32,170 bases of DNA from Clostridia bacterium (GTDB lineage: Bacteria; Bacillota; Sulfobacillia; RBS10-35; Bu92): positions 1-32,170 of the forward strand of contig JADGHN010000004.1 of the NCBI GenBank assembly GCA_019683875.1, written 5' to 3'. Each line of letters begins with the position of its first letter. Within the stretch, counting starts at the first letter, position 1. Positions 617-7,388 of the stretch are shown piece after piece. The notes below the pieces were generated by a model. The model saw only the letters and a list, made by a program, of their open reading frames with translations, was not told where the DNA came from and did no database searches. The translations under genes were made by a program, and so were the position numbers.

Positions 617-1984
617 TTGCGACCGATTCCCGACACGTGGCTGCGGCGCGTGCCCGAGCTGGGCGGGGTGGAGGAGGGCCTGCCCCCGATCCGCGTCCCG
701 CTGACGGGTAACGTCGGCACCTCCACGCGGTTGCGCGCGCTCATCGACACGCGCCCGCTCCAGCGCCTGCGCGGCGTGCGCCAGCTGGGACTGGCGAGCG
801 TCGTCTACCCGGGCGCCACGCACACCCGCTTCGAGCATTCCCTGGGCACCTATGAGCTGGCGCGCCGCCTGCTCCTGAACCTCCTGCCCCGCCGCGGGGC
901 GGAGTTCCTCGACCCGGAGGCCTGCGCCACGTTCCTCTGCGCCGCGCTGCTTCACGACGTCGGCCACTACCCGTTCTCGCACACGCTGGAGGACCTGCCG
1001 CCGGACCCGGAGGGGCGGATCCGCATCCAGCGGCATGACGCCCGCGCGCGCTCCATCATCCTGCAGGACGAGGGCGTCGTCGCCGTGTTGCGGGACGCGT
1101 GGGGGCTGGATCCGGAACGCGTCGCCGCGGTGATCGACGAGGAACATCCTCCGGACGACGCGATGGGCCGCCGGCTCGCGGAGATGCTCGCGGGCGCCCT
1201 CAACCCGGACCGCCTCGACTACCTTCAGCGCGACTCGAACCACGTGGGCGTCCCGTACGGGCGCGTCATCGACAGCGAGCGGCTGCTGCAGGCCGTCGAC
1301 TTCACGGAGGACGGGTCGGCGCTCGCCGTGACGCCGAAGGGCGTCTCGGCCGTGGAGACGATCATCTTCGCCTCGTACCTCATGTACCGCGAGGTGTACT
1401 GGCACCACACGGTGCGCGCGGCGCAGGCCATGCTCAAGCGGGCCGCCGCGGACGCGATGCGGCTCGGCGGGCTCACGCAGGAGGAGTGGATCGACCTGGA
1501 CGACGCCCAGGCGCTGAGCCGGCTGGCCGAGGCGCCGGTGGCGTCCACGCGGGAGCTCGTCGCGCGCCTGTCGGCGCCGGGGCGCCAGCTGTACCGGCGC
1601 GTCGCCGACGCCACGCTCGCGGAGATTGAGAGCGGCAAGCTGCCGCGGTCCGTCGGCGAACTGCTCGCGCAGGCCCTGGACGCCGGCTACTGGGAACAGC
1701 AGGCGTTGGCCGAGGACACGGCGCGCGCGCTGCGCGCGGCGGGCGTCGACCTGCCGGACCACGGCCTCTTGTTCGACGTGGCGGGGCGGGGGAAGGAGCT
1801 GTTCTTCGAGGTGCCGGTGCTCGACCGCTTCGGCGGGCGCGTCGCCGGCACGACGGCCGATCCGTCGATCTCGCTCGTCGCGCCGAACCTTTCCCGCAAC
1901 TTCGACCGGCAGGCCAAGCGCGTGCAGCTCCTGGCGCCGGCGGAGCGCCTCGAGGACGTGCGCCGCGCCCTTGGCATCCGTTGA
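617..1984 (+). CDS. HD-domain phosphohydrolase, dGTPase/SAMHD1-like (COG1078 type)
   Basis: A protein of 455 residues with the HD metal-binding signature: TRFEHSLG near residue 74, LLHDVGHYPFSH with the His-Asp pair near 113-114, and NPDRLDYLQRD near 198-206. This pattern is typical of dNTP triphosphohydrolases of the dGTPase/SAMHD1 group, which release triphosphate from dNTPs. I chose the TTG at 617 because a GGAGG at 604-608 sits eight bases before it; an in-frame GTG at 602 would add five residues but has no clear ribosome site. It ends just before tdk, cdd and pdp, so a role in deoxynucleotide turnover fits the neighbourhood. Substrate preference is not visible in the sequence. Confidence 0.82.
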   Translation: MRPIPDTWLRRVPELGGVEEGLPPIRVPLTGNVGTSTRLRALIDTRPLQRLRGVRQLGLASVVYPGATHTRFEHSLGTYELARRLLLNLLPRRGAEFLDPEACATFLCAALLHDVGHYPFSHTLEDLPPDPEGRIRIQRHDARARSIILQDEGVVAVLRDAWGLDPERVAAVIDEEHPPDDAMGRRLAEMLAGALNPDRLDYLQRDSNHVGVPYGRVIDSERLLQAVDFTEDGSALAVTPKGVSAVETIIFASYLMYREVYWHHTVRAAQAMLKRAAADAMRLGGLTQEEWIDLDDAQALSRLAEAPVASTRELVARLSAPGRQLYRRVADATLAEIESGKLPRSVGELLAQALDAGYWEQQALAEDTARALRAAGVDLPDHGLLFDVAGRGKELFFEVPVLDRFGGRVAGTTADPSISLVAPNLSRNFDRQAKRVQLLAPAERLEDVRRALGIR

Positions 1985-3162: not shown

Positions 3163-4466
3163 CGTTCGACGTCGTTCGTTTCATCGCGGATAAGCGTGAC
3201 GGCCGCGAGCACGACGAGGCGTCGCTGCGCAGCTTCGTCGCCGGCGTGGCGAGCGGCGCCGTGCCCGACTACCAGGTCGCCGCCTGGTGCATGGCGGCCT
3301 ACCTGCGCGGGCTCACGCCCGCGGAGACGGCCGTGCTGACGCACGCGATGGCGCTGTCGGGCGAGACCGTCGACCTGTCCTCGATTCCCGGCGTGAAAGG
3401 GGACAAGCACAGCTCGGGCGGCGTCGGCGACAAGGCCACGCTCGTCGTGGCGCCGCTCGCCGCGGCCGCCGGCGTGCCGATGGCCAAGCTCTCCGGCCGC
3501 GGGTTGGGCCACACGGGCGGCACCATCGACAAGTTGGAGAGCATCCCCGGCTTCCGCACCGCGCTGCCGATCGACGAGTTCGTCGCGCAGGTGAAGCGCG
3601 TCGGCCTTGCCGTCGCCGCCGCCACCGAGCGGCTCGTGCCGGCCGACAAGCGGCTGTACGCCATCCGCGACGTCACCGCGACCGTCGACAGCCTGCCGCT
3701 CATCGCGTCCAGCATCATGTCGAAGAAGATCGCGGGCGGCGCGGACGTGATCGTGCTCGACGTGAAGGTCGGCGCCGGCGCCTTCGTCAAGGACGTGGAA
3801 CGCGCGCGGGAGCTGGCGCGGACGATGATCGCCCTCGGCCGACGCTTGGGGCGGCGCGTCGCGGCGGTGCTCTCGAACATGGACCAGCCGCTGGGGCGCG
3901 CCGTGGGCAACGCGCTGGAGGTGGCGGAGGCCATCGCCGCGCTGCGCGGCGAGGGGCCGGACGACCTCGTCGAGCTCTCGCTGGAGCTGGCGGGCCGGCT
4001 CGTGGCGCTGGCCACGGGAGAGGCGCCGCCGGCCGCGCGCGAGCGCCTGGAGCGACTGCTGCGGGACGGGTCGGCCGCGGAGCGCCTGCGCCGCATGATC
4101 GAGGCCCAGGGCGGGGACGCGCGCGTCGTCGAGGAGCCGTGGCGCCTGCCCAAGGCGCCGCACGTGCGGCCGGTGGCGGCGCCGTCCGGGGGATACGTGG
4201 CGCGGCTCGACGCCCTGTGCGTGGGCGAGGTCGCGCTGGCGCTCGGCGCCGGGCGGCGCAAGAAGGAGGACGCGATCGACCCGGCCGTCGGCGTCGTGCT
4301 GGCGAAGAAGGTGGGCGACGCCGTCGAGTGCGGCGAGCCGTGGGCGCACGTGCACGCGCGGACCGCGGAAGCGGCCGAGGCGGCGGCCGCCGCCCTGCAG
4401 GCGGCGCTCGTCCTGTCCGAGGATCCGGTCGAGCGGCCTCCCCTGGTGTACGAGGTTCTCGAATGA
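3159..4466 (+). CDS. pdp: Pyrimidine-nucleoside phosphorylase (thymidine phosphorylase family)
   Basis: A 435-residue enzyme that splits uridine, thymidine or deoxyuridine with phosphate to the free base and (deoxy)ribose 1-phosphate. The phosphate-binding stretch GDKHSSGGVGDK and the family signature KLSGRGLGHTGGTIDKLES are complete. The SSIMSKKIAGG segment and the C-terminal alpha/beta domain with GRRKKEDAID are also present. Length matches the Firmicute Pdp group. The start GTG overlaps the cdd stop (GTGA) and the stop overlaps the next gene as ATGA. Together with tdk and cdd it completes pyrimidine nucleoside catabolism and salvage: cdd produces deoxyuridine and Pdp cleaves it. Whether it is Pdp or strict DeoA cannot be settled by eye. 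Confidence 0.93.
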   Translation: MTFDVVRFIADKRDGREHDEASLRSFVAGVASGAVPDYQVAAWCMAAYLRGLTPAETAVLTHAMALSGETVDLSSIPGVKGDKHSSGGVGDKATLVVAPLAAAAGVPMAKLSGRGLGHTGGTIDKLESIPGFRTALPIDEFVAQVKRVGLAVAAATERLVPADKRLYAIRDVTATVDSLPLIASSIMSKKIAGGADVIVLDVKVGAGAFVKDVERARELARTMIALGRRLGRRVAAVLSNMDQPLGRAVGNALEVAEAIAALRGEGPDDLVELSLELAGRLVALATGEAPPAARERLERLLRDGSAAERLRRMIEAQGGDARVVEEPWRLPKAPHVRPVAAPSGGYVARLDALCVGEVALALGAGRRKKEDAIDPAVGVVLAKKVGDAVECGEPWAHVHARTAEAAEAAAAALQAALVLSEDPVERPPLVYEVLE

Positions 4467-5920
4467 AACGCGGCGGAGCGGGCTTTATGGGATGGAAGCG
4501 CGGCTCCGGCGTGGGCGCCGCAGGCCGGCCGGGGACCCGCAGGCGGTTGGAGGTCGCGGCCATGCTGGCCGCGGCCTTGGCGCTGTCGGCATGCGCGCCG
4601 GCCGTCCGCCCGGTCCCGCCCGCGCCGAACGAGACGGCCGCGCCCGTCGAGGTCGTGGTGCTGGCCGAACTCGACCCGATCGAGGCGACCGCGCTCCGGG
4701 TGCTGGCACGCCAGTTCGAAACCGCCCAAGGCAACCGGGTACGGGTTCGGATCGTGGCGCCGGAGTCGTACCTGGACGAGGGGACGTCGACCGCGGGCGG
4801 TACGGGGACGGGGAGCGAAGCGGGGTCTTCGAACCGTAGTAGCGGCCCCGCGCCGTCCGAGAACGCCGCCGGCGGCACGCCTGCGGCCGGCGGGCCCGGC
4901 GCGCGGCTGGTCGCCGCGGCGCTGGGCGCCGCCACGAGCCGGATGCCGGCACCCCAGGCCGTGATGCTCGATGCCGCTTCGCTGGGCGAGCTGGCGGCGG
5001 CCGGCGCCCTTGTGCCGCCCGCGCCATCTGTGGGCCGCGCGCTGCAGTCGGCGGCGGCGCGCGCGGTGAGCGGCGGAGACGAGGGAGCGGGGCCCGGCGC
5101 GGGCGGGACGCTCCTCGCGACGCCCATCGACGTCGACCTCGACGTCGTCTACACCCGCGTGGGCTTCCTGCTCGCTCCGCCGGCGGACTGGTCGCAGCTC
5201 ACCGGACTCGCGCGGGCGAGCGCGTCGGCCGTCGCCCAGTCGGGCGGCCAGCTGCTGCCCGGGCTGGCGTTCGGGCGCGACGACGCCGATCTTGTGGCTG
5301 CGCTCGCCACCGCCGCCGCCACGGGCGCGAAACCCCTTGCGGCGCCGGCGGGCACGCCGACCGCCGCGCCGGGCGCGGACGTGCTCACCGGCGCGGGCGG
5401 AGACGCCGCGGTGGCGCAACTCGCCCGCTGGGTGCACGACGGAGATCTCTGGCCCGCGCAGGATCCGGTCGCCGCGTTCCTGAGCGGCCGGGCGGGCGCC
5501 GTCCTCGCCCGCGCCAGCGACCTCGGCGCGCTGGAGGCGGCCCTCGGGGGGCATGCCGCGTTCATGGTCTCCGCGCTGCCGGGCACGCCGCTGCACGTGC
5601 GCGCGCTCGCGCTGCTGCCCTACGGGGCGCCCCGCAGCCGCGCGGCGGCAGCCGAGTTCGCCGCCTTCCTCTCCGAGCCTTCCCAGCAGGCCGTCTGGGC
5701 CACGCAGGCCGGCCGCCTGCCCGCGTCCACCCGCGCGCTCGACACCGGCACGTGGCGCGCGTACGCGGCCCATCACCCCGAGGTGGCCCGCATGACGGAC
5801 CGGCTCGCGCAGGCGGTGGCCTGGTCTCCTCAAGAGGCCGCGGCGGCCGCGGACGCGGCGCGGGCGCGGCTGGCGCAAGTCGTCGGCTCCGGACGGGGGA
5901 GCGGACCGAACCGGCGCTAG
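4463..5920 (+). CDS. Solute-binding lipoprotein, ABC sugar-binding-like fold (orphan)
   Basis: A 485-residue exported lipoprotein. A basic N-terminus and hydrophobic stretch end in the lipobox LSAC with the acylated Cys near residue 45. The mature part starts with VEVVVLAELDPIEATALRVL and a QFETAQGN helix, and ends with a helix containing FLSEPSQQAVWATQ and GRLPAST. That layout resembles family 1 extracellular solute-binding proteins. A long Gly/Ser/Thr/Ala low-complexity insertion near residues 105-150 is atypical. It overlaps pdp by ATGA, so it is translated with the nucleoside salvage genes, but no permease or ATPase is nearby. Nucleoside binding is an attractive guess from context only. 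The protein could also be a sensor or scavenging lipoprotein. Confidence 0.65.
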   Translation: MKRGGAGFMGWKRGSGVGAAGRPGTRRRLEVAAMLAAALALSACAPAVRPVPPAPNETAAPVEVVVLAELDPIEATALRVLARQFETAQGNRVRVRIVAPESYLDEGTSTAGGTGTGSEAGSSNRSSGPAPSENAAGGTPAAGGPGARLVAAALGAATSRMPAPQAVMLDAASLGELAAAGALVPPAPSVGRALQSAAARAVSGGDEGAGPGAGGTLLATPIDVDLDVVYTRVGFLLAPPADWSQLTGLARASASAVAQSGGQLLPGLAFGRDDADLVAALATAAATGAKPLAAPAGTPTAAPGADVLTGAGGDAAVAQLARWVHDGDLWPAQDPVAAFLSGRAGAVLARASDLGALEAALGGHAAFMVSALPGTPLHVRALALLPYGAPRSRAAAAEFAAFLSEPSQQAVWATQAGRLPASTRALDTGTWRAYAAHHPEVARMTDRLAQAVAWSPQEAAAAADAARARLAQVVGSGRGSGPNRR

Positions 5921-6050
5921 AAATTGGAGCGAACAAGCGCCGGAAACCGGAAGGGTGCGGCGGGCACTTCGGGGAATCGTCATCCGTCCAAATCGCTGAC
6001 ACGCAAATCCAAGGCCACGTTCGGCCGCCCTCCGGAAAAGGTGATGCGCC

Positions 6051-7388
6051 ATCGCCACGACGCCGACCCCTCAACCCAATCCCAGACGGCGCCTGAACCG
6101 GCGTCGCCTTCCGGTCCTCGTCCTGGGGCTTGCCGCGCTGCTCGCCGCCAGCGCGGCCGGGACCTGGTACGCGCTGCCCCACGAGCGCGCAGCGTCGCCC
6201 TCCGCGTCGACGCCCGGTCCCGGCGACCGCCCGGCGGCCGCGAGCGAACCGAGCAGCGCGGCCGCGCGCTCGCTGACGCCACCCCCGGCGCCGCTCTCGT
6301 CGGAAGAGTTCGGCCAGCTCCTCGCCTCGTACAAGGCGAACCATCCGAAGGACTTCCGCGGCATTTACATCTCCGGGGCGGCCGCCGGCACGCCCAAGAT
6401 GTGGAACACGCTCATCCGCCTCGTGGAGCGCACGGAACTCAACGCGGTCGTCATCGACGTCAAGGAGGACGGCCACGTCCTCTACGACAGCCAGGATCCG
6501 TTCGTGCGCTCGGTGGGCGCGATCAAGGTGGAGATCCCGCACCTCAAGGAGCAGTTGCAGGAACTGCACAGGAAGCACATCTACGCCATCGCGCGCATCG
6601 TCACGTTCAAGGACAGCGGGCTCGCGAAGGCGCACCCGGAGTGGGCCGTCCAGGACGCGCGCGGCGGCGTCTGGCGCGACCGCACGGGCGCCGCGTGGAT
6701 GAACGCGTACAACGAGAACGTGTGGAAGTACAACCTCGCCATCGCGCGCGAAGCTGTGCGCATGGGCTTTGACGAGATCCAGTTCGACTACGTCCGCTTC
6801 CCCAGCGACGGCGCCATCAGCCAAGCGCGGTACCCGGGCGCGGACGGCCGCACGCGCGTGCAGGCGATCACGAGCTTCCTTGAGACGGCGCGCGCGGAAC
6901 TGGGCCGGATGGGCGTCCCCGTCTCGGCGGACATCTTCGGGCTGATCCCCACGGCGCTGGATGACCAGATGATCGGCCAGCACTGGGAGGAGGCGGCCGG
7001 CGCCGTCGACTTCGTCTCGCCGATGGCCTATCCGTCGCACTACGCGCCGTACACGTTCGGGCTGCCGAATCCGAACGCCGCCCCGGCGGAGACGGTGATG
7101 CACACGATGCAGGACGCCCTGCGACGGCGGCCCGTGGGCGGGGCGCTCGTACGCCCGTGGCTGCAGGACTTCAGCCTCTACGGCGTGCACTACACCCCGG
7201 CGATGGTGCGCGCGGAGATCGACGCCGCGGAGAAGAACGGCGCGACGGGCTGGCTCCTGTGGAACGCCGGCAATTGCTACAAGCCGGACGCCCTCAAGCC
7301 GGATCCGGACGCGCCGCCGCTGCCGAAGTTCGGCGACCAGAGCACCTGCCAGGCGGCGGTGAGCCAGGCGCTGAACGCGGGGAACTAG
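6051..7388 (+). CDS. DUF4015 putative glycoside-hydrolase-like protein, signal-anchored, AUC start
   Basis: About 445 residues. A basic patch and hydrophobic segment (RRRLPVLVLGLAALL) near residues 13-38 form a signal anchor, followed by an Ala/Pro/Ser linker. The TIM-barrel-like domain starts at FRGIYISGAAAGTP and continues with TELNAVVIDVKEDG, GFDEIQFDYVRFPSDG and VSPMAYPSHY, the marks of the DUF4015 putative glycosyl hydrolase family. The only ATG in frame (6399) would delete the anchor and the first strand. Upstream, after a TGA at 6042-6044, no ATG, GTG or TTG exists. An ATC at 6051 lies five bases after AAGGTGAT and is the best start. A one-base sequence error is the alternative. It is convergent with the MFS gene. 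Confidence 0.75.
   Translation: MATTPTPQPNPRRRLNRRRLPVLVLGLAALLAASAAGTWYALPHERAASPSASTPGPGDRPAAASEPSSAAARSLTPPPAPLSSEEFGQLLASYKANHPKDFRGIYISGAAAGTPKMWNTLIRLVERTELNAVVIDVKEDGHVLYDSQDPFVRSVGAIKVEIPHLKEQLQELHRKHIYAIARIVTFKDSGLAKAHPEWAVQDARGGVWRDRTGAAWMNAYNENVWKYNLAIAREAVRMGFDEIQFDYVRFPSDGAISQARYPGADGRTRVQAITSFLETARAELGRMGVPVSADIFGLIPTALDDQMIGQHWEEAAGAVDFVSPMAYPSHYAPYTFGLPNPNAAPAETVMHTMQDALRRRPVGGALVRPWLQDFSLYGVHYTPAMVRAEIDAAEKNGATGWLLWNAGNCYKPDALKPDPDAPPLPKFGDQSTCQAAVSQALNAGN

Follow-up and report, generated by a model that had tools for sequence, protein, structure and literature searches.

The window analysed here is a stretch of 32,170 nucleotides of a Clostridia bacterium, an uncultured member of the Bacillota (contig JADGHN010000004.1, positions 1 to 32,170), and the locus of interest lies on its plus strand. 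A gene for an SBP_bac_8 solute-binding lipoprotein (4466..5920, PF13416) is followed there by a DUF4015 (PF13200) coding sequence with an N-terminal signal anchor (6051..7388, 445 aa), recognised by its Pfam match and by a third-position-biased divergence from the sister species. In two relatives, G002 and G011, a similar solute-binding gene also ends just 5' of the DUF4015 gene, as far as the translations can be read by eye. The DUF4015 frame is open from 6045, right after the TGA at 6042-6044, to the stop at 7386-7388; the TGA is followed by TGC GCC ATC (6051-6053) GCC ACG ACG, and the first in-frame ATG, GTG or TTG is the ATG at 6399, within the domain. The rereading of the sequence agrees with the earlier note, which had described the frame as open from 6045 and devoid of these three codons before 6399. 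A run of 116 codons without any of the three has a chance of about 3e-4 under the codon frequencies of the genome, a rough figure given the unusual Ala/Pro/Ser-rich composition of the linker.

The PF13200 profile matches the product over its entire length (model positions 1-313 of 313; 3.8e-107, 358.5 bits against a curated cut-off of 27), the domain occupying residues 106-412 of the 447 in the main frame, and a second match of the product is to 4s1a (E=1e-53), a protein of solved structure and unknown function. The domain is preceded by RRRLNRRR, a 19-residue hydrophobic stretch (maximum Kyte-Doolittle mean 2.0) and a linker. The Arg-rich segment and the hydrophobic helix RRRLNRRRLPVLVLGLAALLAASAAGT are encoded at 6084..6164 on the plus strand, where the codon-position pattern of mismatches to the sister species marks them as coding, and together with the linker they have the make-up of a normal signal anchor. 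The claim that both this anchor and the first strand of the domain are encoded ahead of 6399 holds, since the hydrophobic stretch is there and PF13200 begins at residue 106 while the ATG at 6399 is residue 119. The product is predicted to be an anchored, outward-facing protein, putatively of the glycoside-hydrolase type.

The proposed initiation codon, ATC 6051..6053, lies behind the Shine-Dalgarno (SD) sequence AAGGTGAT (6038..6045), the AGGTGAT part of which pairs with the 3' tail of 16S rRNA. The two are separated by five bases (GCGCC), exactly as had been proposed. The strength of this site was compared with that of 131 genes with conserved canonical starts, in which the median duplex energy is -11.9 kcal/mol and the median spacing 7 (10-90%: 5-10); all these energies were calculated with an assumed anti-SD sequence GAUCACCUCCUUUCU, which is the standard 16S 3' tail and may not be the genome's own. 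The ATC at 6051 has a duplex of -12.1 kcal/mol at spacing 9 in the AGGAGG register, and the corresponding ATC codons of the sister species and of G002 have -11.5 kcal/mol at spacing 9 and -11.7 kcal/mol at spacing 10, values that only 2.6-4% of random in-gene codons equal. The other codons at which translation could be thought to begin in the window pair less well (ATG 6044, -5.6; CTG 6093, -2.0; ATG 6399, -4.8 kcal/mol), as do a TTG in the sister (-2.1 kcal/mol) and a GTG in G002 (-4.1 kcal/mol). Thus, the ATC codons match canonical starts in both pairing energy and spacing, whereas the rival codons do not. The same region may form a 7-bp hairpin, GGUGAUG-CGC-CAUCGCC (6040..6056, plus strand, -7.4 kcal/mol), in which the SD is paired with the AUC codon. 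This hairpin is present in the sister too, and infC in the window's genome has a similar one (GGUGC/GCAUC). The opening energy of the window's hairpin is, however, average for the genome and its significance is unproven; AUC starts behind SDs of the GGUG type lead naturally to pairing of the SD tail with the CAUC around the start. An Rfam search returned only four tRNAs, with no riboswitch or other RNA near 6051.

A DUF4015 match was found in seven of the 13 genomes of the order: the window's own genome (G000), its sister species G001, the closer G002, G011 and G012, and two distant copies. The G012 copy is cut by a contig end at the start, and the comparison of start sites covers four species in three lineages. 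The sister, the second species of the genus (JADBKN010000022.1, a separate assembly), has a protein 84% identical to that of the window. Its start region, AAAGGTGATGCGTCATCGCCACG against AAAGGTGATGCGCCATCGCCACG in the window, is identical at 22 of 23 bases, the SD being unchanged and the UGA/AUG overlap and the in-frame ATC common to both, while the sequence upstream of the SD-ATC region has diverged. From 6084 on, the mismatches between the two species fall on codon positions 1/2/3 as 5/1/17 and every indel is in-frame, which argues that the main frame is coding from at least 6084, that is, already upstream of the CTG at 6093. Over the 11 codons after the ATC the distribution is 4/1/5, the divergence there being too high to prove coding.

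The N-terminal segments of G002 and G011 are too diverged for a base-by-base alignment. In G002 (63% identity) the frame opens after a TAA, and the first canonical codon in it is a GTG inside the transmembrane (TM) helix; an in-frame ATC follows AGGAAAGGGG and precedes the TM region by 19 codons, the same distance as in the window and the sister. In G011 (58% identity) the start reads GTG AAG CAC GGA AGG AGC GGA TCG CCC ATC CTG CGC CGC. The ATC behind AAGGAG has a duplex of -19.1 kcal/mol at spacing 8, exceeding 99% of canonical genes, and the sole upstream in-frame GTG is poor (-6.2 kcal/mol at spacing 2); the product from the ATC would be (M)LRRHLALFLVAWSLFLVGC, with a lipoprotein-type signal (MLRRHLALFLVAWSLFLVGC). 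Hence the comparison of the start codon in close relatives, which the earlier note had proposed, gave an in-frame ATC behind an SD in all three of them, and in the four species taken together this near-cognate codon lies at functional spacings of 8-10 with energies typical of canonical genes or stronger. Given that about 4% of codons are ATC, we estimate that its presence at the one or two in-frame positions best placed for the SD, in each of three lineages independent of one another, would arise by chance with a probability of the order of 1e-4. In those class members outside the order whose in-frame codons were listed, canonical codons are available before the domain, and most of these lie before the helix too.

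Of the two possibilities originally put forward for this locus, a real AUC start and a one-base assembly error, the former has stood and the latter has not. The window's genome is a draft of 1.87 Mb in 202 contigs and the ATG at 6044 is just one base out of frame, so that a sequencing or assembly error might have hidden a normal start, by separating this ATG from the main frame or by altering an ATG at 6051. Nevertheless, the same frames, the same UGA/AUG overlap and the same ATC recur in the separately assembled sister at 84% identity, with no base that would join the ATG to the main frame, and the ATC is found again in G002 and G011, which makes such an error extremely improbable. It could also be supposed that ribosomes start at the AUG at 6044 and shift by +1 into the DUF4015 frame, the more so as this ATG and its first codons (MRHRH...) are conserved in the sister and their frame overlaps the gene start. 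The ATG (6044..6046, plus strand) overlaps the in-frame TGA 6042-6044, and its spacing of 2-3 nt from the SD and its weak pairing do not fit a start; the sister's out-of-frame ATG has -8.1 kcal/mol at spacing -1, and that of G002 shares the pairing of the ATC but at spacing 2. Moreover, the G002 ATG lies in a relative frame different from that of the window and the sister and could be joined to the gene only by another shift, so that one conserved frameshift does not account for all of them, and the conserved upstream frame and shift direction expected of programmed frameshifting are lacking among the three species. The AUG-frame product also diverges in sequence and in length, with 242 aa in the window and about 108 aa in the sister, and inspection by eye revealed no known slippery site; we regard the frameshift as very improbable.

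A start closer to the helix, whether at the CTG at 6093 or at codons peculiar to one species (a TTG in the sister, a GTG in G002), would in all three cases leave a short N-terminus just before or in the TM helix, and CUG starts seem to be present elsewhere in the genus. We nevertheless consider it improbable: the CTG at 6093 is replaced by CTC in the sister, the SD pairing of all three codons is at background level and the protein would lack the conserved RRR encoded just upstream. Translation of the domain without its membrane anchor from the ATG at 6399 has in its favour that this is the first canonical codon of the frame, but the first PF13200 strand would be cut off, the ATG is devoid of an SD and G002 has no Met at the position; this reading is hardly credible. 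The absence of a canonical start, the conserved SD-AUC pair and a main frame that is coding from at least 6084 all point to a real AUC start, and on this sequence evidence the DUF4015 gene very probably begins at the AUC codon at 6051.

The infC genes of the order provide the natural frame for this reading. Their start is ATC in nearly all 13 genomes, including G000, G001, G002, G011 and G012, and ATT in G005, with strong SDs (loci L118, on contig 15 of the window's genome, L119, L120 and L121-L130). In the window's genome the infC start, AAGGAGGTGCAGCCGCATCAGC, has a duplex of -14.9 kcal/mol at spacing 9. AUC initiation is evidently tolerated in the order, as infC starts at this codon with, in the window's genome, an SD spacing equal to that of the DUF4015 gene. 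We infer initiation at AUC, a low yield and IF3 sensitivity for the latter. In such a mechanism the AGGUGAU SD, of which UGAU is a start-proximal extension of the usual motif, would position the 30S subunit, and fMet-tRNA would pair with AUC through the first two bases, giving the product (M)ATTPTPQPNPRRRLNRRR-[TM]-linker-DUF4015. IF3 accepts AUG, GUG and UUG as start codons and rejects others; translation would for this reason be weak, by precedent about 10% of that from an AUG start, and, as with infC, would increase at low levels of free IF3. IF3 appears to be complete in G000, G001 and G002, and IF3 sensitivity of the DUF4015 start is plausible because infC of the same genomes also begins at AUC with the same spacing. 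By analogy, the conserved AUC arrangement suggests that the output may be kept low or controlled by IF3.

The DUF4015 start would belong to an already known kind, that of genes with a conserved near-cognate start. The prototype is infC itself, with AUU, AUC or AUA starts, which resembles the DUF4015 gene in its conserved AUC behind a good SD, at spacing 9 nt in this genome. However, infC autoregulates its own factor, whereas DUF4015 is predicted to be a surface protein on which any effect of IF3 would be one-way. Deinococcus deserti, in the work of Baudet of 2010, reportedly has several genes with non-canonical initiation codons in one genome; the likeness lies in this multiplicity, while the phylum is unrelated and the evidence there is proteomic. 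The infC gene of Streptomyces also uses ATC, such codons being repressed by IF3, and Streptomyces sigR has a GTC start for which IF3 repression was shown experimentally (PMC5472188). The sigR start is likewise conserved across species, provided with a strong SD and prone to misannotation, but its codon is GTC and its IF3 repression experimental, whereas for the ATC of DUF4015 the repression is inferred. Closer in phylogeny are infC, cvfC1 (AUU) and ccpN (AUA) of S. aureus, non-canonical starts with extended start-proximal SDs, and in poor medium the non-canonical starts tested in that species reached about 10% of the expression obtained with AUG (PMC13009471). The ccpN and cvfC1 genes share with DUF4015 the Bacillota background, the extended start-proximal SD (AGGUGAU in DUF4015) and the conserved non-canonical start; they differ in codons and genes, and in having ribosome-profiling evidence. 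E. coli pcnB, with its AUU start (Binns & Masters 2002, as cited in PMC13009471), appears from that citation to be likewise a gene other than infC in which a poor start codon is limiting, with another codon and another function. The earlier statement that AUC and AUU starts are mainly known for infC was roughly right, although pcnB, sigR, ccpN and cvfC1 are further described examples.

Other starts of this kind were sought in the genus among 227 ORF pairs, from about 1.03 Mb of G000 and 0.80 Mb of G001. A first filter, which relied on an alignment reaching upstream of the first canonical codon, was useless, as upstream neighbours align too; a codon-position filter and a filter on SD and coding boundary were better but still noisy, and for this reason the list given here is a manual selection, which does not estimate a rate. 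The survey recovered infC as a positive control and the automatic filters found no better start for DUF4015. Among the genes without a canonical candidate there were four with ATC and four with CTG, an enrichment that is suggestive only. In both species the SD energies of five further candidates, with AUC or CUG, fall within the range of canonical genes. In a rhomboid-family gene (L149:9933, plus strand) a CTG stands in both species behind the SD GAGGAGG at spacing 7, and the relatives G002, G011 and G012 (L260, L261, L262) have ATG at the aligned first residue; it offers the strongest cross-check, indicating that the genus probably starts genes at codons where its relatives have ATG. A rodA/ftsW-like gene (L134, about 1371-1373, minus strand; ATC GAA CTG CGG) has a candidate ATC start in both species, while among its counterparts (L247, L248, L249) G002 has an ATG one residue away and G011 a GTG. 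The remaining three are amj (alternate to MurJ; L209 near 19550, and L170), with an apparent CTG start behind GAGGTGA, a spermidine-synthase-like membrane gene (L139:4576, plus strand, and L156), with an apparent CTG behind GGGGGTGA, and a DUF2007 gene (L243 near 1290, and L163), with an apparent ATC or adjacent CTG behind GAGGAGG, each in both species. With infC and DUF4015 these hand-picked genes make up roughly 3% of the about 227 ortholog pairs. It is possible, though doubtful, that AUC and CUG starts are unusually frequent in the genus, many of them in membrane or envelope genes, and that IF3 activity adjusts an envelope regulon or the lineage discriminates less strictly between start codons.

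Gene finders accept only ATG, GTG and TTG, so that genes such as that of DUF4015 stand in the databases truncated or without their membrane anchor, and the other candidate starts in the genus suggest that non-canonical starts may be commoner than annotation shows. What the DUF4015 start would add to the known cases is that it is conserved in three families of a single order, together with the accompanying candidates. An AUC start outside infC with such a distribution would offer a clean natural test of the regulation of ordinary genes by the level of IF3.
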